Shown here: piece by piece, positions 6,055-24,375 of the stretch
How positions within the stretch are numbered: position 1 is the stretch's first letter
How the letters are laid out: every line of letters begins with the position of its first letter
DNA from: Bacteroidales bacterium
GTDB taxonomy: Bacteria > Bacteroidota > Bacteroidia > Bacteroidales > UBA4181
Reading direction: 5' to 3'
NCBI GenBank assembly: GCA_031270985.1
Contig: JAISWR010000003.1
Span: 1 to 34,287 of the forward strand
Length of the DNA: 34,287 nt
Notes under the pieces: generated by a model
What the model saw: the letters and a program-made list of their open reading frames with translations, nothing else
Told to the model about the DNA's origin: nothing
The model's database searches: none
Position numbers and translations under genes: made by a program

Positions 6055-7506
6055 TTAAGGATTTTGCAGGATTACTTCCGGGTTTTGCGTGATGACCTTC
6101 AGCGGGATGGGCCACACCAACTGTACTTTGGCAATGGCTTTATCAGATGCTCCCAGCACTGCCTGCGCTTTTCCCGTGCGTTTCAAGTCGAAATAGCGAT
6201 GAAATTCCAGCGCCAGTTCCACATGCCGTTCGTGCGCAATGGCTTCGTCAAGCGTGGGATACAGGGCGATGGGATATGCGGCGTTGCCCCACTCCGGCAG
6301 ATTTGCCCTTCTCCGCACTTCGTTCAGGTATTGCGCGTCGCCGGTGACTTCGGACAGCAGCAGCAGTATGTCGGCATAACGCAGCACGATGAAATTGTTG
6401 TCGCACATTTCCACTTCGCCTACCCTTGGTGCATCGAGGTCTATCCATTTGCCGGGGAAGCGGTGGTTAGGAAACTCCTCACCCGTACTGGTCTTCCATC
6501 CGTTCACTATGGAGAGGTCTCTGCGGGGATCGTTGGGTTCATAGGCGTTCCACAAGTCGACGGTTACTTGATTGTCGCCTCCGCCTGCCGCATGGAGCAA
6601 CTGTCCGACGAACGGGCCGTTCAGGAACACCCCGTCATGGTTTTCGTGCGGGGTAAACATTCGCCAGTAGGAGCTGTACGGGTTGCCCGATCCGCCCTTG
6701 TACTGTATTTCGAATACAGACTCGGCGCCGTTCTTTTTGGTCATGTCCCACAGGTCGGCGTAGTTCACCAGCGCAAATCCGGCTTTTTGGTAGATGTTAC
6801 GCAGGGCTGTTTCCGCCAGCGCCTTGTCGCCGCTTGCGTTCCGCGCCAGATAGACTTTTGCCAGGATGCCGTAAGCGGCTTCCTTGCATATTCTGCCTTT
6901 TTCGGCAACACTGGGCTTGGCGGGCAGTTTGTCGGCGGCAAATTTCAAATCCTCAATGACTTGCTCATACACCTGAGCGACGGGCGTCCGCCCCTGCGCG
7001 TAACTTTCGTCCACGTTCAGCGGCTTTGTCACCAAAGGGACGTCGCCCCACATCTGCACCATCAGGGAATAATACAAGCCGCGCAGAAACCTTGCTTCGC
7101 CTTCATACTGATCCTTAGAGGCAATGCTTGACGCCTGTACCTTCTCAATGAAAGTATTCACGCGGAACAGCGACTGATAAAAATTCTCCCAAAAACCGTT
7201 GATGAGCGCATTGTCTTCCTTGACAGCATGGGCATTAATATTTAAATACTCACCGATGGTACCGTTGTGCGCATATAAGGTGGCATTGTCGGACATCAGT
7301 TCGCCGTAATAGGACACCGGGCCGGAAGGTCCGTAGATAGTGTGCAACGTCCGGTATACCGCCATGATTGCCGTATTGAAATCGGATTCTGTCTGGTAAA
7401 AATCCTGTTCGTTCATGTTGGATATGGGTGAACGTTCGAGAAAATCCTTACTACATGAACCCGTCAGAAAAATTGAAATAGTGATAAAAAATATTGTTTT
7501 TTTCAT
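6055..7506 (-). CDS. SusD/RagB family outer-membrane glycan-binding lipoprotein
   Basis: Starting at the MKK codon at 7506 (two further ATGs lie just upstream at 7512 and 7515) the protein has 483 residues. A lipoprotein signal ends at Cys18 in LTGSCSKDFLERSP, and the residues after the Cys (SKDFLE) suit a Bacteroidota surface-export signal. The N-terminal DFLERSPISNMNEQDFYQTESDFNTAI region and the C-terminal WPIPLKVITQNPEVILQNP ending are typical of SusD/RagB proteins, as is the RYADILLLLSE segment. SusD caps the SusC barrel and delivers oligosaccharides to it. It follows susC by 18 bp in the same operon and precedes a strong terminator. The ligand cannot be predicted from sequence. Confidence 0.97.
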   Translation of the reverse strand: MKKTIFFITISIFLTGSCSKDFLERSPISNMNEQDFYQTESDFNTAIMAVYRTLHTIYGPSGPVSYYGELMSDNATLYAHNGTIGEYLNINAHAVKEDNALINGFWENFYQSLFRVNTFIEKVQASSIASKDQYEGEARFLRGLYYSLMVQMWGDVPLVTKPLNVDESYAQGRTPVAQVYEQVIEDLKFAADKLPAKPSVAEKGRICKEAAYGILAKVYLARNASGDKALAETALRNIYQKAGFALVNYADLWDMTKKNGAESVFEIQYKGGSGNPYSSYWRMFTPHENHDGVFLNGPFVGQLLHAAGGGDNQVTVDLWNAYEPNDPRRDLSIVNGWKTSTGEEFPNHRFPGKWIDLDAPRVGEVEMCDNNFIVLRYADILLLLSEVTGDAQYLNEVRRRANLPEWGNAAYPIALYPTLDEAIAHERHVELALEFHRYFDLKRTGKAQAVLGASDKAIAKVQLVWPIPLKVITQNPEVILQNP

Positions 7507-7524
7507 GATCATCATATTTAAAGA

Positions 7525-10500
7525 TTAAAAACCGATATTGATGCCGATTGTCCATGTTCTCGGGCTGGGGTATGTGCCGTAGTCAAGTCCTACCATAGCG
7601 CCTGTTTGGAAAGTACTGCCTTCCGGGTCAAAATTCGGATAATCCGAGAAGACATAGAGGTTCTCTACGTTGACATACAGTTTTGCCGAAGCGATGGACA
7701 ATTTTTGGGTGAGGTTGCGCGGCAACGTGTAACCCAACCGCACGTTGCGGATGCGGACAAACGAACCGTCTTCCACCCAGTAGGAACAGCTTTGCGCCTT
7801 AACGGTCTTTCCGGGTGTTACTCTCGGTTTCGGGGTTTTACCGTCGCCCGGTTCGGCTTCGGATCTCCAGTAGTTGAATACCGACTTGTACGCATTACGA
7901 GAGTCGTTGTACTCCTTGGTGAACCGCCCTTGCTGGTTGAATATTTCGTTGCCTTGCACGCCCTGCAACATCACCACCAGCTCCAGTCCCCGATAGTTGA
8001 ATGTATTGGTCATGCCCCAGATGAAATCGGGCTGGTAGTTGCCGATAGTGGTGCGGTCGTCCGGCGTGAGGGTACCGTTTCCGTCCACGTCCCTGATAAT
8101 GGGGTCGCCCGGCTCGTATCCTGCTTTTTGGAGGTGCGGATAGTTGGTCAAATCGGCAGCGCTCATGATCACTCCGTCATACATGTAGCCGTAATAATTG
8201 GAAATAGGCTGCCCCACTTCCGTTTTACAGATGGTTGACGAATTGGCTATTTCCACCGGAGCATCGTTGATGCCGAGTTTCAACACTTTGTTGCGGTTGC
8301 CCGAGATGTTGAAATCGGTTGTCCATTCGAAATTGCTGCTCGTGACGTTGCGCGAACTGATGTTCAGTTCCAGCCCGTTGTTCTGCAATTGTCCGATGTT
8401 GGTAAGCCTTGTGGTGAATCCCGAAAGTACGGGCACAGGCACGTTGAGCAACATGTCCTCGGTTTTGGAATGATAGTAATCCAATGTAGCATTCAAGCGA
8501 TTGTTCCAAAGGGATATATCCAGACCGAAGTTGATTTGTTTGGTTTTCTCCCAGCGCAGGTCTTTGTCGGGATAGGTGTTGGTATAAAGTCCCGGGTACA
8601 CCGTTCCGTCAAACACATAGTCGGCAGAGGTCAGCAATCCGATAGCGCCGTAGTCGGAAATCTGGTTGTTGCCCGTGACGCCGTAACTGACGCGGAGTTT
8701 CAGGTTGTCCAGCCATGTGAGGTTTTCCATAAAGGATTCCTGCGACAGTCGCCATGCTGCGGAGGCAGAGGGGAAATACCCCCACGGGTTGTTGGCGCCG
8801 AAGCGCGAACTTCCGTCGGCACGAATGGCGGCAGATGCCAGATATTTGCCTTGCCATGAATAGGTGACACGCGCCAGATAGGACAGCAACGCCCATTCGG
8901 AAGCGCTTGTCTGACCGGCAGTAGGCGTACCGGCGTTCAGGGTGTGTACCATATCGTTGGGGAACGACTGCGAGGTCAGGGAGGATTGGTAAATTTTTTG
9001 CTCCTGCGCGGTGTATCCCAACAAGCCTGTCACGGCATGGTTGCCGAACACCTTGTTGTAGTTCAGCGTATTTTCCCATGCCCAGTTGAACATGTGCGCG
9101 GTGCGGAAACTTGCGGCGGCATCCTGATAGACCGACCAGCCGTAGTTTTGCCCTTTGTTGCGGAAATCGTCATATTTGATGGCGTTCACGCTGGCGTTCA
9201 GGCTCGTTTTGAACGACAGTCCGTCGAAGAGTTTCACTTCCACAAAGCCGACGCCCATCATGTTGTCGGTTTCCTTGCGTCGTTTGATTTCCCTGGTTTG
9301 CGCCCACGGATGCCACAAGTTCAGGTTGTATCCTGTAAAGGCGGGATTCCAGATGGATTGCGGGTCGAGGAAGCCGTAAGTGCCTCTTTCGTTCACCACG
9401 GGAAAAATAGGGTCGCTTTGGATGGCAAGGCTCACCACGTCCGATTTTCCTTCCGTTCCGAAAGAGGACTCGCCCATTCTGGCGTAGGACATGTTCACGC
9501 CTGAGGTGAAGCGTTCGGAAATTTTGTGGCGGAGGTTTGCCCGCGCGGTCAAGCGGTTGTAATAGGTTCCGTCCACCGTGCCTTCCGAGTTCAGGTAGCC
9601 GGCGGAAATCATGAACTGCGTTTTCTCGCTGCCGCCCGATACGGAGGCCTGTACGTTGTGCGAATACGCGGTGCGGAACAGTACATCCTGCCAGTCCGTA
9701 CCGTTGCCGATTCTCGCCAGCCAGGTAGGATCGGTGAACGCTTCGGGAATCTTCAGGTTGGTGGCGGGACGAAGCGAATTGGGGTCGGTGGCTTTGTTGT
9801 TCACGGGGTCGTTGGAAACCCATGTGTTGTTTCTTCCCGCGATGGTAAACTCTATAAATTCCTGGGCATTCATCATCTCGTACCTGCGCGCTACGCTGGA
9901 GACGCCAAATTCATAATTCACGTCCACTCTGGTAGCGCCCGCTCTGCCCTGTTTGGTGGTGATGAGCACTACGCCGTTGGCGCCGCGCGAACCGTAAATT
10001 GCCGCCGAAGAAGCGTCTTTCAAAATCTCGACAGACTCGATATCCTGCGGATTAATCATGTTCAGCGGATTGGCGTTGGCGGTCAGGTTGGTTGCCTGAT
10101 TGGGCGATTGCGAGGTGGTTTCCGTCGGGCTGTAATCTTCCAGCGGAATACCGTCGATCACATACAGCGGCGTGGCGCCGGCATTGATGGTGGACGCGCC
10201 TCTGATTTTAATGGACGGCGCAAACCCCGGCGCACCCTGCGATTGTGAGATCTGGATGCCGGGCAACTGTCCCGCCAAGGACTGCATCACATTGCTGTAA
10301 GAGCGCTCTTTCAGTTTGGCGCTGTTCACGGAAGCCACAGCGCCTGTCAGATCGCGTTTGCGCTGCGTTCCGTAGCCAACTACCACTACTTCTTCAATCT
10401 CTTGGGATTCTTCGCCGAGCGTCACCGTGATGGCGGTTTGGTCGCCCACCTGAACGTCGATCGTGGAATATCCCAAAAAGGAGAAAGACAGTACGGCGTC

Positions 10501-10992
10501 ACGGTCGGGCACGTTGATGCTGAACTTTCCATCGGCATTGCTCACCACGCCGATGAGCGTCCCTTTGACGGTGACGTTTACGCCGGGCAATGTCACGCCT
10601 TTTTCGTCAAGCACCGTTCCCGTAACGGTTATGCCCTGACGGAATGCCCGAGTATCTTCCATCTCTTTCTGACCCAGAATGATCAACCTGTCTTTCACAA
10701 CATAATCGATCCCAGAGTCCTTGAACATTTCCTGCAGAACGTCGTAGATATTCCCGTCTTTCGTATGAACGCTTACTCTACGGGCGTTGTCTATCGCCCC
10801 GTGACGGTAAAAGAATACGTATTGGGTTTCTTTCTCTATCCTGCTGATCACATCGTTTAAACTGATCCCCTGTATATCCAGCGTGATTTTTGTATTTTGC
10901 GAATATACGCTTGCAGTAGCTTGAAATGTCAATACAATAGCCAAAACAAAAATATTTTTCATACACAATAAAAATTTAATCAAATAATGCAT
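7525..10992 (-). CDS. SusC/RagA family TonB-dependent outer-membrane transporter with STN domain
   Basis: The ATG at 10992 opens a signal peptide typical of SusC proteins (MHYLIKFLLCMKN...ASVYSQ), giving 1155 residues; an extension to 11046 adds nothing recognisable. Domains in order are: STN (about 36-108, ITLDIQGISLNDVISRIEK), carboxypeptidase-D-like beta-sandwich (about 120-193, GTVLDEKGVTLPGVNVTVKG), the VVVGYGTQRKRDLTGAV linker (about 202-219), a plug domain including GSRGANGVVLITTKQG, and a large C-terminal beta-barrel ending in an aromatic residue (GINIGF). It imports oligosaccharides with SusD using TonB energy. The STN domain is usual for receptors that signal to an anti-sigma/ECF sigma pair, yet no FecR-like gene adjoins it; the ECF sigma gene at 32866-33453 is remote and has no evident link. 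Confidence 0.97.
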   Translation of the reverse strand: MHYLIKFLLCMKNIFVLAIVLTFQATASVYSQNTKITLDIQGISLNDVISRIEKETQYVFFYRHGAIDNARRVSVHTKDGNIYDVLQEMFKDSGIDYVVKDRLIILGQKEMEDTRAFRQGITVTGTVLDEKGVTLPGVNVTVKGTLIGVVSNADGKFSINVPDRDAVLSFSFLGYSTIDVQVGDQTAITVTLGEESQEIEEVVVVGYGTQRKRDLTGAVASVNSAKLKERSYSNVMQSLAGQLPGIQISQSQGAPGFAPSIKIRGASTINAGATPLYVIDGIPLEDYSPTETTSQSPNQATNLTANANPLNMINPQDIESVEILKDASSAAIYGSRGANGVVLITTKQGRAGATRVDVNYEFGVSSVARRYEMMNAQEFIEFTIAGRNNTWVSNDPVNNKATDPNSLRPATNLKIPEAFTDPTWLARIGNGTDWQDVLFRTAYSHNVQASVSGGSEKTQFMISAGYLNSEGTVDGTYYNRLTARANLRHKISERFTSGVNMSYARMGESSFGTEGKSDVVSLAIQSDPIFPVVNERGTYGFLDPQSIWNPAFTGYNLNLWHPWAQTREIKRRKETDNMMGVGFVEVKLFDGLSFKTSLNASVNAIKYDDFRNKGQNYGWSVYQDAAASFRTAHMFNWAWENTLNYNKVFGNHAVTGLLGYTAQEQKIYQSSLTSQSFPNDMVHTLNAGTPTAGQTSASEWALLSYLARVTYSWQGKYLASAAIRADGSSRFGANNPWGYFPSASAAWRLSQESFMENLTWLDNLKLRVSYGVTGNNQISDYGAIGLLTSADYVFDGTVYPGLYTNTYPDKDLRWEKTKQINFGLDISLWNNRLNATLDYYHSKTEDMLLNVPVPVLSGFTTRLTNIGQLQNNGLELNISSRNVTSSNFEWTTDFNISGNRNKVLKLGINDAPVEIANSSTICKTEVGQPISNYYGYMYDGVIMSAADLTNYPHLQKAGYEPGDPIIRDVDGNGTLTPDDRTTIGNYQPDFIWGMTNTFNYRGLELVVMLQGVQGNEIFNQQGRFTKEYNDSRNAYKSVFNYWRSEAEPGDGKTPKPRVTPGKTVKAQSCSYWVEDGSFVRIRNVRLGYTLPRNLTQKLSIASAKLYVNVENLYVFSDYPNFDPEGSTFQTGAMVGLDYGTYPSPRTWTIGINIGF

Positions 10993-11211
10993 AACTTTGA
11001 ATGTTTTTAAATTAATACAGATTGTCTGCAAATTGCAGACGAACAATGGTTTGAAATCACTGCCGGAGAATACTCGTCCTATTTTCCGGCTTTTTTGGGT
11101 TTTTCTTTAGGTTTTCATAGGCAAACTGTTTTTTAGGTGATACTTCAATCAATAATTTTTTCCGACAGCACTGAAATGTTTGGCTGTTCTCTTATAAGAC
11201 AGACAACTGAA

Positions 11212-11234
11212 CAAAAATACGTATCGTATTTTTG
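11212..11234. promoter_or_regulatory. 23-bp palindrome holding two divergent -7 promoter boxes
   Basis: Ten-base arms CAAAAATACG and CGTATTTTTG flank a TAT centre and are exact reverse complements. Each arm contains TATTTTTG, matching TAnnTTTG, one on each strand, so the site could start susC transcription leftward (about 215-base leader) and comB transcription rightward (about 140-base leader). It could equally be an operator for a dimeric regulator. The whole gap 10993-11379 holds no other feature that I can support. Confidence 0.5.
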
Positions 11235-11379
11235 ATTTTTTTGAAAAATAATTCCAAAATATCCATTTTGGGCTTACTCGTCACTGCAATATTTCTTTTA
11301 TTGTCCGGAATTCTGTCTTCGTTGATAAATTATCCGGCGAACAGGTATATTAATAATGATAAATGCGTAATTTTGCCGG

Positions 11380-12096
11380 ATGTATCAGATCACCGTTTGT
11401 TTCACGCCCGTGCAGTTTCCGTCGTATCCGCACGATAATGTCAACGCCGTCGCCATTGATGTGTTGCGCGCCACTACTTCTATCTGTACCGCTTTCATGA
11501 ACGGGGCGGAAAAGGTAATACCCGTCAGCACGACGGAGAATCTGAAAACGTATGCGAGCGGGTCGTACATCATTGCTGCCGAGCGGGACGGCATTAAACT
11601 TGATTTTGCGGACATTGGCAATTCGCCGAAGTATTTCACCCGTGCGCTGGTGACGGGCAAAGCCATTGCTTACAGCACCACCAACGGCACACACACCATC
11701 AACCTTGCGGCGACATGCGGCAGTGCGGCGGTAGGCTCTTATCTCAACATCAGCGCAGTGTGTCGCTGGCTGGAGGCAGGCGGCAGGGATGCATTCCTGC
11801 TGTGTGCCGGGTGGAAAGGGCGGTTTAATCTGGAAGATGCCGTGTATGCGGGCGCCGTTGCGCAACGGCTGTTGGACACAGGGAAGTTTGAAACCGTATG
11901 CGACAGCGCCCTTGCGGCAATAGACCTTTGGTCGCTGGCAAAGAACGATGTGACGGGTTACATCCGCAAAGCCGCTCAAAACGAACGGTTGCGCAACATC
12001 CACGCTGCCGATACGATTCCTTATTGCCATACGCCGGATTTGACAGATATTGTGCCGGTGTTCTGCAACGGGATACTCAAAGGACAAAAATGTTGA
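11380..12096 (+). CDS. comB: 2-phosphosulfolactate phosphatase (ComB family)
   Basis: A full-length 238-residue ComB family protein, recognised by NVNAVAIDVLRATTSI near the N-terminus and the STTNGT segment in mid-protein. ComB is a Mg-dependent acid phosphatase that removes phosphate from 2-phosphosulfolactate to give sulfolactate. In methanogens this is step two of coenzyme M synthesis; in bacteria the purpose is mostly unknown outside sulfolactate-making sporeformers and a few others. No comA, comC or other coenzyme M gene is in the window. It is the first gene of a run comB-MFS-priA, with 22 bp to the transporter. The start ATG agrees with the family's short N-terminus. Substrate specificity in this organism is inferred only from family. 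Confidence 0.88.
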   Translation: MYQITVCFTPVQFPSYPHDNVNAVAIDVLRATTSICTAFMNGAEKVIPVSTTENLKTYASGSYIIAAERDGIKLDFADIGNSPKYFTRALVTGKAIAYSTTNGTHTINLAATCGSAAVGSYLNISAVCRWLEAGGRDAFLLCAGWKGRFNLEDAVYAGAVAQRLLDTGKFETVCDSALAAIDLWSLAKNDVTGYIRKAAQNERLRNIHAADTIPYCHTPDLTDIVPVFCNGILKGQKC

Positions 12097-12118
12097 ACCT
12101 GAAAATATATGGAATATC

Positions 12119-13501
12119 ATGATCGATAACGGGAAGAGTCTTCGCGATTCAAAACTTGCACGCTGGACGGCGTTGGGCATTGTGTCGTTCACCATGATGG
12201 CGGCATACTTTTTTTACGACGCTATGGCGCCGCTCAAACGGATGCTTGAGGAAACGCAGGGTTGGAGCAGTTCGGATTACGGCACGTTTACCAGCGCTTA
12301 CGGATGGTTCAACGTGTTTCTGTTGATGCTGTTTTTCGGAGGTTTGCTGCTGGACAAAAAAGGAATCCGCTTCACCGGCGTAACGGCTACGGGGCTGATG
12401 GTGCTGGGGGCGTTCATCAAATATGCCGCGCTGTCGGGCATATTGCCGACGGACGGGGTGCTGTTCGGGCTGAGATACCAGGTGTTGTTTGCCTCCGTCG
12501 GCTATGCCGTTTTCGGCATCGGCTCCGAAGTGGCGGGCGTTGTTGTCTCCAGAGTGATCGTTAAATGGTTCAAAGGTTATGAGATGGCTTTGGCAATGGG
12601 CTTGCAGGTTGCCGTTGCACGTATCGGCACCGGTATTGCGATGCTTACCGCCAATCCGCTGGCAAGATACTTCAACGACGTGTCCGGCTTGCTGTTGTTC
12701 GGCGTTACCTTGCTTGCTGCAGGACTGCTCTCGTTTTTGATGTACAACATCGCTATGGACAGGCGTATTGACCGGCAAACCGGCAACACGACACCATCAT
12801 CCGGCAGCGAGGAGGAATTTAAACTGTCCGACGTGAAAATAGTGGCAACTAACTACGGATTTTGGTTGATTGCACTGCTTTGTATGCTGTTTTACTCTTG
12901 TATTTTCCCGTTCTTGAAATACGCACCCGATTTGATGATCAACAAATTCGGCATTGATGAGGAATGGGCGGGAGTTGTTCCGTCCCTGTTGCCCATCGGC
13001 ACGGTGATTCTTACACCGCTTTTCGGTTATATTTACGATCATAAAGGGAAAGGCGCTACCATTATGCTGGTTGGCGTCCTGATGCTGATTGGCGTCCATG
13101 CCCTGTTCTCCCTGCAAGGCATTAATAATTGGGTGTATGCAGCGATATTGATGATGGCGTTGGGTGTGGCATTTTCGCTGGTTCCGTCGGCGATGTGGCC
13201 CTCCATCCCGAAAATCATCCCCGAAAAACAATTAGGCACGGCTTATGCGCTGATATTCTGGGTGCAAAATTTCGGATTGTGGGGTATTCCGCTGCTCATC
13301 GGGCAGGTGTTGGATAAATTCTGTAAAACCGTATCGCCTTCCGGCAACATAAGCTACGATTACACCCTCCCGATGCTGATTTTTCTCGGCTTGGCGGTTC
13401 TTTCCGCAGTGTTTGCGCTGTTGCTCCGCCGCGAAGACAGAAGGAAAGGTTACGGGCTGGAATACCCGAACATTGAGCGGCAAAAAAACACACCTTTATA
13501 A
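12119..13501 (+). CDS. Major facilitator superfamily transporter
   Basis: A 460-residue inner-membrane protein with about twelve hydrophobic segments and a hydrophilic central loop near residues 215-240, the usual two-halves MFS layout. The loop after TM2 contains GGLLLDKKGIRFTG, matching the MFS motif G-x3-D-x2-G-[RK], and the second half repeats it as FGYIYDHKGKGAT. The start was placed at ATG 12119, as the frame to 12050 would overlap comB and lacks membrane character. Substrate is unknown. Its position directly behind comB allows the guess that it exports or imports an organic sulfonate or other organic anion, but this is context only. It ends 11 bp before priA. Confidence 0.9.
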   Translation: MIDNGKSLRDSKLARWTALGIVSFTMMAAYFFYDAMAPLKRMLEETQGWSSSDYGTFTSAYGWFNVFLLMLFFGGLLLDKKGIRFTGVTATGLMVLGAFIKYAALSGILPTDGVLFGLRYQVLFASVGYAVFGIGSEVAGVVVSRVIVKWFKGYEMALAMGLQVAVARIGTGIAMLTANPLARYFNDVSGLLLFGVTLLAAGLLSFLMYNIAMDRRIDRQTGNTTPSSGSEEEFKLSDVKIVATNYGFWLIALLCMLFYSCIFPFLKYAPDLMINKFGIDEEWAGVVPSLLPIGTVILTPLFGYIYDHKGKGATIMLVGVLMLIGVHALFSLQGINNWVYAAILMMALGVAFSLVPSAMWPSIPKIIPEKQLGTAYALIFWVQNFGLWGIPLLIGQVLDKFCKTVSPSGNISYDYTLPMLIFLGLAVLSAVFALLLRREDRRKGYGLEYPNIERQKNTPL

Positions 13502-19116: not shown

Positions 19117-19232
19117 TTTTTTTTCAATTTAAATTATATTTCTTTCCGCTAAAATCGTGCCAAAAATTGTTGCCGCCTAAAAGTTTCATACCGAAAGCGT
19201 TTTGACAAGCCAAGCCGTTCTTCGTACGGTGT

Positions 19233-19871
19233 TCAATCTCTCAAGTGGTTCAGCTGTTCCACGTCGGATTCCCGAAATACGTCGCCGATTTTGTTGGCAA
19301 AGATGCCCAACACAAGTATGCTGACAAAAATATCCAACAGGATGCCGCTGTTGACCATCATCGGCATTTCGTTGCCTACAGCCAGCGACAACACAAAGAT
19401 GCCGTTCTCGATGACCAGATACCCCATCACATGGGTAATCAGTTTTTTGCGTGAAATGATGATGAACAGCCCCACGAAAACCGTTGAAACGGCTGCCGCA
19501 AAAAACATTGCGTCCAGATGTCCCATGTCGCTGTCGGCAATGGTGCCTGCGCCCAGAAAGGAACCCGCCAGCAAAAAGGTGATGATGATGAGCGACACAA
19601 AATTGGGGACAAACGGTTCCGCCTCGCGTGTGATTTTGTTCTTCCTAATGATGTTTTTCATAAATAAAGGTATGGCAAGCGTTTTGAAAATCAGGGTTTC
19701 CGCAAGCACAAACAGTAAGTTATTCCAACTCATGTCGTGCAATTGCAGGTAAGCCGCCCCCGTCAGCAACACTCCCTGCACCATCAGGATATTGATATAA
19801 GTAAACAAACGGTTAGCTATCCCTATGTAGAGCAGCGTGATGAGAAAAACGACCAGAAGAACGTGCGCCAT
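19233..19871 (-). CDS. Hydrogenase-4 component E-like (NuoK-related) membrane subunit
   Basis: A 212-residue protein made almost wholly of hydrophobic helices (about seven). The conserved C-terminal portion (KKLITHVMGYLVIENGIFVLSLAVG) and the ending LVLGIFANKIGDVF are characteristic of HyfE, a subunit whose second half resembles NuoK of complex I. The glutamate in YLVIENGIF is conserved in NuoK-like subunits and takes part in proton translocation. Length fits the family. It follows the hyfC-like gene by 24 bp. The expected downstream partners hyfF, hyfG and hyfI (antiporter-like, catalytic large and small subunits) are not here. Confidence 0.88.
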   Translation of the reverse strand: MAHVLLVVFLITLLYIGIANRLFTYINILMVQGVLLTGAAYLQLHDMSWNNLLFVLAETLIFKTLAIPLFMKNIIRKNKITREAEPFVPNFVSLIIITFLLAGSFLGAGTIADSDMGHLDAMFFAAAVSTVFVGLFIIISRKKLITHVMGYLVIENGIFVLSLAVGNEMPMMVNSGILLDIFVSILVLGIFANKIGDVFRESDVEQLNHLRD

Positions 19872-19895
19872 GATGATATTGATATGTCAGTGAAA

Positions 19896-20798
19896 TTATT
19901 GTCGCATCATCAGCAATACTCCGAAAGAAATCAGCAGACTGAGCGAGGTGAGCGCAAAAACGAACTGCGCGTTGTGGCTCATGCGAAAACGTGCGCCGAA
20001 TGATTCGACGCATCCTATGATGACGGCGGAAAGCGCCTGGACAGCAAAAAACACCAACGCCTGTAACCATAATGACCATGAATGGTTGATGAAAAAATTA
20101 GCAATCAGCGTGCCGAAAACCGCAAATTTTAACGTGCCGGCATACATGATAAGCCCCAAATCGAAACCGCTGTTGTCCAAAATCATCACTTCGTGCACCA
20201 TCGTCAATTCCAGATGCGTTTTGGGATCGTCCACCGGCACGCGGCTGTTTTCCACCGCCACAATCAGCAGCAGTACAGATCCCGCCAGCGCCGCCAGCGC
20301 ATAAGATGCAGGCTCCGAAAAATGAAACGCCGCGAAGATGTCGAAAAATGATGTATAACCTGTCAGCAGGGCGAACGATCCCATCAAAACAAAAAAAGCA
20401 GGTTCGGCAAGCATGGAAAATATTGCTTCGCGGCTGGCGCCCATACCTTCAAAACTGCTCCCCGTGTCGAGCGCCATCAAAATCATGAAAAACCTGCTCA
20501 TCGCCAGCATATACGCAAATACCACGAAATCACCGTCAAACGACAGCAAACCTTTGCTACTGCCAAACGGCGTCAAAAACGCGGCAAACAATACGGCGGA
20601 AAAATAAATCACCGGCGCCCACCGAAAAATCGGCGTGGTAGTGTGGCTGTACACTGCTCCCTTGCGGAACAGCCTCAGGTAATCATATATCGGTTGCAGG
20701 ATGCGCGCCCCTTTACGACCCGACAGTATGCCCTTAGTGCGTCCAATGATGCCCGCAAAAAATAGACTGGCAACAACGATAAGAACAAGGCTCAGCAT
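19896..20798 (-). CDS. Hydrogenase-4 component C-like (NuoH-related) membrane subunit
   Basis: A 300-residue polytopic membrane protein of the NuoH/HyfC family, the subunit that links peripheral catalytic modules to the proton-pumping arm in complex I and group 4 hydrogenases. Diagnostic segments are SSFEGMGASRE (114-124) and ENSRVPVDDPKTHLELTMVHE (183-203), which form the quinone-side loops in complex I relatives. Length is normal. The gene usually placed before it, hyfB (NuoL-like), is absent; an LptE-like gene lies upstream instead. A TATCTTTG box at 20814-20821 could be its own promoter. No Ni-Fe or Fe-S subunit gene occurs in the window. Confidence 0.9.
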   Translation of the reverse strand: MLSLVLIVVASLFFAGIIGRTKGILSGRKGARILQPIYDYLRLFRKGAVYSHTTTPIFRWAPVIYFSAVLFAAFLTPFGSSKGLLSFDGDFVVFAYMLAMSRFFMILMALDTGSSFEGMGASREAIFSMLAEPAFFVLMGSFALLTGYTSFFDIFAAFHFSEPASYALAALAGSVLLLIVAVENSRVPVDDPKTHLELTMVHEVMILDNSGFDLGLIMYAGTLKFAVFGTLIANFFINHSWSLWLQALVFFAVQALSAVIIGCVESFGARFRMSHNAQFVFALTSLSLLISFGVLLMMRQ

Positions 20799-20813
20799 AG
20801 TGATAAATTTTTA

Positions 20814-20821
20814 CAAAGATA
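20814..20821 (-). promoter_or_regulatory. Candidate -7 promoter box before the hyfC-like gene
   Basis: TATCTTTG on the minus strand fits TAnnTTTG and lies 16 bases before the start codon, implying a very short leader. No -33 TTTG at standard spacing was found. Confidence 0.35.
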
Positions 20822-20985
20822 CATGTTTCCCATGAATTTTTAATTAAATGGAACAAACACATCTTTGGGCGGGGTTTTCAACCGTTCCACTACCGGCTAT
20901 ATCAATAATCCACCGGATAATTTTCATGCCAAACCTCATGGGCGGGGTCAAAAATAAGTTTGTTATATCGTTATACAGATGTGCG

Positions 20986-22673: not shown

Positions 22674-23654
22674 TTATTTATATTTCATGATTTGCAGATG
22701 CTGTAATATTCTTTGTTTCACCGCTGGAGAGGCTATGTCTTTCAGCAATTCTTCCGCCAATGCCTGCAACAATATTTTACGGGCTTCGGCCTCTCCTATC
22801 CCCCTTGAACGAAGGTAAAACACGGCTTCTGCATCCAATTGCCCCACAGTGGCGCCGTGACTGCATTTCACATCGTCGGCATATATTTCCAATTGTGGCG
22901 TGATGTTCATTTTTGTTTCCGGATGCAGCAGGATATTGCTGCTTCGCTGGTATGCCGTTGTTTTTTGCGCATTTGCGCTCACAACGATGCGTCCTGTAAA
23001 ATCACCTGTGGACGTTCCCGAAAGGATATGCCGAAACAACTGGTTGCTGCTGCATTCGGGCGATGCGTGTGTTATGTCCACATGGTTGGCGGCATGTTCC
23101 GCTTCTTTTGTAAAGGTCAGCCCCCGCACGACGTGTTCCGCATCCTTTCCTGCGAGTGTTGCGTCCAACGTATTCCGGACATTGCCGAACGTTACGCAGT
23201 GCACACTCATACGCGAAGATGACGCCTGCCACGCCTTGATGTGCGTGGACACACTTTTTTGTCCGCCTTGCTGCAATCGCACCATGTGCAGCGAGGCAGC
23301 CTCGTCCAGCCGTATGGTGGTTGCATCCTCTTCGTTGCTGTCGTATACCAGCACGTCGGCAACGCCTCCCGAAGCGATGTATATCAGGTTGTTGCCACCG
23401 GAGGAACGGATCAGCAAAGGCTTGTCGGAATGCTTTCCGCAGGGCACATACAGCATAAATCCGTTGATGCTTGCGGCATCCGTTACGGAAGCGTGAATAC
23501 GGCAATGTCGTAAAAAAATCTCCATGCTGCCGAATTTCTCAACAATGCCGGCACGATTGCCCGCCACAATACCGTTCCATTCTTCATACACCGCCTTCGT
23601 TGCGTCCGCTACGAACCGATAAACGTCTTGTTCAGGAATTGACAAGCCATTCAT
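22674..23654 (-). CDS. sufD: SufD, Fe-S cluster assembly protein (short form)
   Basis: The C-terminal half is clear SufD: NQLFRHILSGTSTGDFTGRIVVSANAQKTTAYQRSSNILLHPETKMNITPQLEIYADDVKCSHGATVGQLDAEAVFYLRSRGI, the family signature. SufD forms the SufBC2D scaffold that assembles Fe-S clusters. At 326 residues it is about 100 residues shorter than typical Bacteroidales SufD (near 440-450), mostly missing the N-terminal helical region and the C-terminal tail. Residues 1-100 are poorly matched. The reading frame is intact and the start overlaps the sufC stop by 23 bp, which is normal for the operon. SufB, SufS and SufE genes are not in the window. It could be a reduced but functional subunit. Confidence 0.88.
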   Translation of the reverse strand: MNGLSIPEQDVYRFVADATKAVYEEWNGIVAGNRAGIVEKFGSMEIFLRHCRIHASVTDAASINGFMLYVPCGKHSDKPLLIRSSGGNNLIYIASGGVADVLVYDSNEEDATTIRLDEAASLHMVRLQQGGQKSVSTHIKAWQASSSRMSVHCVTFGNVRNTLDATLAGKDAEHVVRGLTFTKEAEHAANHVDITHASPECSSNQLFRHILSGTSTGDFTGRIVVSANAQKTTAYQRSSNILLHPETKMNITPQLEIYADDVKCSHGATVGQLDAEAVFYLRSRGIGEAEARKILLQALAEELLKDIASPAVKQRILQHLQIMKYK

Positions 23655-24375
23655 ATCCTTTGGATTCTAATTCGAGCGCCAACTCTTTCCCTGCAGACTT
23701 GATGATGCACCCGTCAGCCATTACATGGACGACGTCGGGGACGATATAGTCCAGCAGCCGCTGGTAATGCGTGATGACGATCGTAGCGCTGTCCGGTCTT
23801 TTCAGCATGGTGACGCCGTTTGCCACTATGCGCAAAGCGTCAATATCCAGCCCGCTGTCGGTCTCATCAAGTATTGCCAAAGTAGGTTCCAGCATGGCCA
23901 TTTGGAATATTTCATTGCGTTTTTTTTCACCGCCCGAAAAACCTTCGTTCACCGACCGATTGATGAGCGAGGACTCCAAGCCCACCAATTCGGCTTTTTC
24001 GCGCATGCGTTTTAAAAATTCCGAAGCGGTCAACAGGGGTAAATTCCTGTATTTACGCTGTTCGTTCACAGCGATTTTCATGAAATTTGCCATACTTACG
24101 CCCGGAATTTCCACGGGATACTGAAAACTAAGAAATACGCCCTTTCGCGCGCGTTCTTCGGGTGAAAATTGCAGTAAATCCGTTCCTTCAAAAAACACCT
24201 CGCCTTGTGTGACCTCGTAACCGCTACGCCCCGTAAGGACGGCAGCCAGTGTGCTTTTGCCCGCGCCGTTGGGTCCCATGATGGCATGCACTTCGCCTGC
24301 TTTCACTTCGAGGTTCACTCCTTTCAATATCTTGTTCCCGTAAACGGAAGTATGCAAATTGCGAATAGATAACAT
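23632..24375 (-). CDS. sufC: SufC, Fe-S cluster assembly ATPase
   Basis: A 247-residue ABC-type ATPase that powers the SufBCD scaffold in the cytoplasm. Walker A GPNGAGKST lies at 34-42, followed by the SufC-type Q-loop segment FLSFQYPVEIPGVSMANF. The signature NEGFSGGEKKRNEI and Walker B with LAILDETDSGLD (a SufC hallmark) come next, and the C-terminus includes VITHYQRLLDYI, also diagnostic for SufC. Length is standard. In most Bacteroidales sufB precedes it directly; here a 220-base gap and then the PLP enzyme gene lie upstream, so SufB must be encoded elsewhere. Confidence 0.98.
   Translation of the reverse strand: MLSIRNLHTSVYGNKILKGVNLEVKAGEVHAIMGPNGAGKSTLAAVLTGRSGYEVTQGEVFFEGTDLLQFSPEERARKGVFLSFQYPVEIPGVSMANFMKIAVNEQRKYRNLPLLTASEFLKRMREKAELVGLESSLINRSVNEGFSGGEKKRNEIFQMAMLEPTLAILDETDSGLDIDALRIVANGVTMLKRPDSATIVITHYQRLLDYIVPDVVHVMADGCIIKSAGKELALELESKGYEWLVNS

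Follow-up and report, generated by a model that had tools for sequence, protein, structure and literature searches.

Ehr complexes are homologues of group 4 hydrogenases that lack the Ni-Fe ligands (PMC6349859, PMC7304191), and HydDB places them among the homologues that do not metabolise H2 (PMC5037454). That Ehr couples charge translocation to a redox reaction is called suspected in PMC6349859. Here we describe a hyfC-hyfE gene pair from a Bacteroidales bacterium that stands apart from any other gene of this kind. We propose, with a probability of about 0.85, that it is one piece of an Ehr-type complex whose six genes (HyfB, HyfC, HyfE, HyfF, HyfG and HyfI) are all present but dispersed over the genome. 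Scattered loci encoding the subunits of one complex are known from Aquifex and from the cyanobacterial ndh genes.

The window, i.e. the whole stretch of DNA analysed, is the entire contig C12 (34,287 bases) of the organism's own assembly (G000; 2.4 Mb, 146 contigs, 85% complete). It carries hyfC and hyfE separated by 24 bases (Table 1). The first-pass annotation had described the pair as intact, full length and devoid of hyf neighbours, and this is real: both frames are open over their full length, and in searches of the genome with the NuoH, NuoL/M/N, NuoD and NuoB families, hyfC was the sole match within the window. No second NuoH-family gene besides hyfC was found in the assembly, at its 85% completeness. 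HyfC exceeds the cut-off of Pfam NADHdh (27 bits), while HyfE matches the NCBIfam model 'hydrogenase 4 membrane subunit' (NF008556) almost from end to end, its 62.4 bits falling short of the cut-off of 136, and Pfam Oxidored_q2 (PF00420) at 20.4 bits, below the cut-off of 26.1. Identity of HyfC is 76-81% with seven relatives from the genus and 64-65% with two genomes of the same family; for HyfE it is 80-84% with six genus relatives. Upstream of the pair lie lptE and a gene for a sigma-54 activator; downstream, an OMP beta-barrel-like gene (22.4 bits, below the cut-off of 28.7) and smpB. Because ~19 kb and ~13 kb surround the pair in C12, its isolation is not an effect of the contig edge.

Table 1. 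Features of the hyfC-hyfE locus (positions in the window).
Feature	Positions	Strand	Description
hyfC	19896..20798	-	NuoH-like membrane subunit of Ehr-type complex; 300 aa; PF00146, 93.8 bits
hyfE	19233..19871	-	NuoK-like membrane subunit; 212 aa; NF008556 and PF00420
Gap lptE/hyfC	20799..20985		187 bases; upstream edge of the fragment; in the ancestral order hyfB precedes hyfC
Gap hyfE/OMP beta-barrel-like gene	19117..19232		116 bases; downstream edge of the fragment; in the ancestral order hyfF follows hyfE
TATCTTTG	20814..20821	-	Candidate Bacteroidetes-type -7 promoter element; begins 23 bases before the hyfC start

The pair had been taken to lack catalytic and antiporter partners. All four are encoded at other loci of the same genome, each as an open frame. 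HyfB (669 aa, C145) lies between metallo-hydrolase and prolyl oligopeptidase genes, and HyfF (472 aa, C142) between the genes of methylmalonyl-CoA mutase and queuosine synthase; both match PF00361, the family of antiporter-like membrane subunits. HyfG (490 aa, C66) is found beside TrmO and a cytochrome-c-assembly protein, with a 90-aa frame without assignment also sitting between in these surroundings, and HyfI (254 aa, C120) beside YqeY and dihydroorotate dehydrogenase. The six genes thus occupy five loci, and none of the four lies a short distance from the pair: each is on a contig other than C12 and has different neighbours. The earlier suggestion of retained use, perhaps with subunits encoded elsewhere, agrees with these four loci and with the purifying selection reported below. 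A second PF01058 match, on C9, was rejected as HyfI, its Pfam assignment being the small subunit of a Tat-type [NiFe] hydrogenase (L042, 6656-7741); its N terminus is Tat-like as read by eye, and the organism may therefore have, next to the Ehr-type complex, a genuine uptake hydrogenase.

We compared G000 with further members of the genus (G001 to G008), all fragmented draft assemblies. All six subunits were found in four of them (G000, G005, G007 and G008) and five of six in another four, the searches of these draft genomes missing F in G001, I in G003, G in G004 and E in G006; G002 (57% complete) yielded HyfI and a 38-residue HyfF fragment only. The hyf genes now adjoin different genes and could be regulated apart, as would fit a history in which individual subunits were each recruited to a task of their own, for instance HyfC-HyfE as a minimal membrane module. 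However, the same six recur across the genus, and pN/pS is low in all of them (medians from 0.15 to 0.30), which makes such recruitment very unlikely. The minimal module, put forward in the first-pass annotation, we judge wrong: all six subunits are in the genome and it is the operon that is dispersed.

A set of 60 genomes contained twelve from outside the genus with a HyfC of this type. Nine were fetched (G009, G011, G016, G029, G033, G034, G038, G040 and G054), whose coordinates already suggested a shared contig; G028, G037 and G050 were left unfetched. The order B-C-E-F-G-I is compact in all nine, which belong to the same family or order, hyfB of G034 being truncated by the contig start. 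A contig scan with HyfC as single protein returned no relative, and a scan with a HyfG alignment succeeded. Among the best 80 of at least 572 relatives, tblastn located HyfG between F and I in 58 of the 62 sufficiently flanked loci (exceptions: L109, L111, L118 and L130), and all six genes were present in 49 of the 51 loci with longer flanks (exceptions: L109 and L118). Where one side only could be assessed, L078, from the genus itself, was without I and L103 without an adjacent F. In L111, from a Prevotellaceae bin, a lone HyfG (6405-7907) sits beside FKBP-like and parAB-like genes, named by eye; in L118, from a Gastranaerophilales bin, there are G and I only (9905-12186). These two are possibly independent break-ups. 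As a separate observation, G009 bears a second hyfB-like copy (L069, 10207-12216) with one in-frame TGA; its first hyfB and the other genes of the operon are open.

Within the genus, B-C-E-F-G-I has been taken apart to differing degrees, into a four-gene block, a pair and single genes. The B-C-E-F block is kept in G004 and G008 (in the latter hyfF is cut by contig ends), with HyfI apart from it in both and HyfG apart in G008. G007 has E and F together and B, G and I elsewhere; its hyfC ends at a contig edge, so that C-E-F may still be contiguous there, and no end overlap was found between the contigs concerned (C107 and C111). G000 retains the C-E pair plus four single genes, G005 has six separate loci, and G001, G003 and G006 show singles only. 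Several new neighbourhoods are shared by subclades: hyfC following genes for an amidase and an MscS channel (G001, G003, G005 and G006), hyfI behind YqeY and dihydroorotate dehydrogenase (G000, G001, G005 and G006), hyfG behind a MiaB-like gene (G001, G005 and G006) and hyfF behind an Lnb-type gene (G003 and G005). Dihydroorotate dehydrogenase is also near hyfI in G008, and YqeY in G007. Neighbour families were grouped by BLAST and named from Pfam on one member each. In the tree of concatenated genes, support was 100 for G001 with G006, for G003 with G005 and for those four together, and 88 for G004 with G008; the other nodes within the genus are weak (34 and 50). Pfam searches of 20 chosen neighbours revealed no transposases beside relocated genes.

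Could the dispersal be an artefact of assembly or binning, with the pair coming from another organism or contig breaks splitting a compact operon? The many contigs and incompleteness of G000, the short contigs of its relatives and the contig edge at hyfC of G007 would all fit, yet this, too, is very unlikely. In G000, B, C-E, F and G are each flanked on both sides, within one contig, by unrelated genes, and hyfI (whose contig ends 442 bases downstream) has dihydroorotate dehydrogenase 5 bases upstream, at the ancestral position of HyfG. The new junctions, moreover, recur in several different species. Regarding a foreign origin, the four partner contigs have a GC of 0.479-0.491 against 0.499 for the window, and their tetranucleotide profiles correlate with it at r 0.93-0.96. 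Loci of sister species gave 0.88-0.91 (three) and 0.51 (one), and four genomes from outside the genus 0.30-0.61. Given the sister-species loci at 0.88-0.91, composition excludes distant contamination better than a close relative, and alone does not tell G000 from a sister species. However, all six hyf gene trees, as well as the concatenate, hold the genus apart from six outside genomes.

To quantify selection we used the Nei-Gojobori method with Jukes-Cantor correction, taking dN/dS ratios from the two closest pairs. Between G001 and G006 we obtained 0.12 for hyfC, 0.13 for hyfB and hyfG and 0.14 for hyfI; between G003 and G005, 0.03 for hyfE, 0.10 for hyfG, 0.11 for hyfC and hyfF and 0.24 for hyfB. 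In most other pairs, including those with G000, synonymous sites are near saturation and pN/pS never exceeds 0.39; selection on the G000 copies is hence read from low pN/pS and from the relatives. The genus relatives of all six hyf genes are under purifying selection. If a hydrogenase operon had been lost and its remnant were decaying, with frames open by chance or recency, this would explain why the pair is alone in the window and why single subunits were not found in several incomplete genomes. The selection result contradicts this reading, which is very unlikely: six subunits are intact in G000, the two closest pairs give dN/dS of 0.03-0.24, and eight genus members retain the same pieces.

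The first-pass annotation had also spoken of the loss of a group 4 hydrogenase operon. The operon is dispersed, not lost, and the complex is Ehr-type, without Ni-Fe ligands. Indeed, none of 96 aligned HyfG rows has a CxxC at the Ni-Fe sites (residues 160-225 and 440-490), and 'hydrogenase 4' is therefore the wrong name. The HRG histidine is kept in 93/96 rows, and most of the listed HyfG rows end in a DPSF-type C-terminal motif, as in NuoD. The tyrosine in the DRLDY motif of NuoD is the tyrosine of the quinone site; where NuoCD has DRLDY, the six displayed Ehr rows align with a sequence of the ENIAGD type, and this tyrosine is not conserved in them.

HyfI joins a ferredoxin half, similar to FHL-6/NuoI, to a half similar to MbhJ/NuoB. 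Four ferredoxin-type cysteines (48, 65, 68 and 71) are kept in 85/87 HyfI rows. The four N2-type cysteines are all present in 33 of the 87 rows, and two or fewer in the other 54; the seven rows from the genus have none of them, and the other nine rows from the same order 0-1. We read the HyfI of the genus as likely to hold one [4Fe-4S] cluster and no N2 cluster. We also observed a clean split of the HyfI rows into L079-L117 and L118-L157: rows with four N2 cysteines are all in the latter, mostly from other phyla, and most Bacteroidota rows are without N2 ligands.

Most likely, the six genes are transcribed separately and their products assemble into an ion pump driven by a redox reaction; this pump probably still works though the genes are no longer together. 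For a complex of this kind in the membrane, we would assign antiporter-like channels to HyfB and HyfF, a connecting membrane arm of the NuoH/NuoK type to HyfC and HyfE, and the peripheral arm to HyfG and HyfI. Electrons from ferredoxin or another soluble donor would enter at the single [4Fe-4S] cluster of HyfI, and a redox event in the old active-site cavity is predicted to drive H+ or Na+ across the membrane.

We searched for TAnnTTTG, which we take to be the Bacteroidetes -7 promoter motif. In the window it occurs 33 times, where 21.3 sites would be expected, and among 75 ORFs picked from G000, 15 have a site within 100 bases upstream. The motif begins 12-30 bases before hyfC of G000, hyfB of G004, G005 and G006, and hyfE of G001 and G007. 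The two-element Bacteroidetes promoter pattern occurs at two window sites, neither at hyf, hyfC being preceded by the -7 element only. The gene upstream is not a hyf gene for 36 of the hyf genes; 10 of these 36 follow a same-strand stop within 10 bases or overlap it by 4-7 bases (a count that excludes hyfF of G006 and hyfI of G008, which depend on the automatic choice of start), and none of these 10 closely abutting genes has the motif within 120 bases. Free-standing hyf copies may thus carry a promoter of their own; as the motif is common, this evidence is only suggestive.

Other operons of the genus show to what extent the break-up is general. The two genes with a SUFBD core, which we interpret as sufB and sufD, are on different contigs in 7/7 members that yielded both (G001 and G003 to G008); judging by their position, a contig break alone does not account for this in G001, G004, G005 and G008, but could do so in G003, G006 and G007. 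The starts of the SUFBD genes are ~1.7-2.3 kb apart in G010, G011, G016, G029, G033, G034, G038 and G040. In G054 they are on two contigs, one near the contig end, and the search of G009 gave no match. In the window, sufD and sufC adjoin (22674-24375) with no sufB beside them, and upstream there are genes for a Cys/Met PLP enzyme and a PLP-CBS-domain protein; neither sufB nor another second SUFBD gene was found in the G000 assembly. Complex I is compact in G008 (L205), with B, CD, H and the following genes, L, M and N. G004 has a B-CD-H block, and L, M and N were not found there. In G001, NuoB, NuoL, NuoM and NuoN are scattered singly among other genes; NuoCD and NuoH, located at contig ends, may adjoin. 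G006 has CD and H together and L, M and N on other contigs, and NuoB was not found there. The scattered loci of these two members are L195-L204. The split of suf and the scattering of complex I in two members indicate that break-up is wider than hyf. Most Rnf/Nqr pairs (PF02508) of the genus, by contrast, have stayed adjacent; pairs are divided between contigs in G004 and G007, and gaps are wider, at ~0.7-1.1 kb, in G001, G002 and G004. Break-up is therefore broad but not universal. We infer that hyf dispersal is part of this wider, non-universal process in the genus rather than specific to hyf.

What appeared to be an orphan pair is therefore one stage of an ordered series of operon break-up within a single genus, from a block of four to a pair to singles. 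Such a series allows theories of operon persistence (co-regulation, assembly order, gene transfer) to be tested on a complex still under selection. Separately, a relative of complex I that lacks the N2 and Ni-Fe ligands is relevant to the question of how pumping is powered by redox chemistry in the superfamily. A 2024 paper reportedly treats antigenic operon fragmentation in Bacteroidota. Among the titles and shown abstracts returned by our literature search, we found no published account of hyf dispersal or of an Ehr without N2. Annotation based on neighbourhood will report false orphans in genomes of this kind. PMC12361115 groups complex I matches that are at most 250 bases apart; a survey of this type would presumably miss that a scattered set is complete.

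How does the complex compare with known systems? With Ehr complexes it shares kinship to group 4 hydrogenases, antiporter-like subunits and the lack of Ni-Fe ligands; it differs in that its genes are dispersed over the genome and that HyfI of the Bacteroidales branch is also without the N2-cluster cysteines. A tentative and rather doubtful extension is that the Bacteroidota Ehr represents a new sub-kind of complex-I-like pump, without Ni-Fe and N2 and with one ferredoxin-type [4Fe-4S] cluster, and that the present genus shows how such a machine can be kept whole though its operon is dismantled gene by gene. Group 4 [NiFe] hydrogenases (Hyf, Hyc/FHL, Mbh) provide, by sequence, the best solved relatives of HyfG (FHL subunit 5 and MBH alpha) and of HyfI (mbhJ and FHL subunit 7), but they are set apart by the CxxC that HyfG lacks at either Ni-Fe site in every one of the 96 rows. 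HyfG resembles complex I in its domains of the NuoC and NuoD type, its HRG motif and its DPSF-type C terminus; the differences are that the displayed Ehr rows do not conserve the tyrosine of DRLDY, that the N2 ligands are lost and that no NuoH besides hyfC was found in G000. Finally, in contrast to the dispersed operons of Aquifex and the cyanobacterial ndh genes, here the intermediates of the break-up are still visible within one genus.
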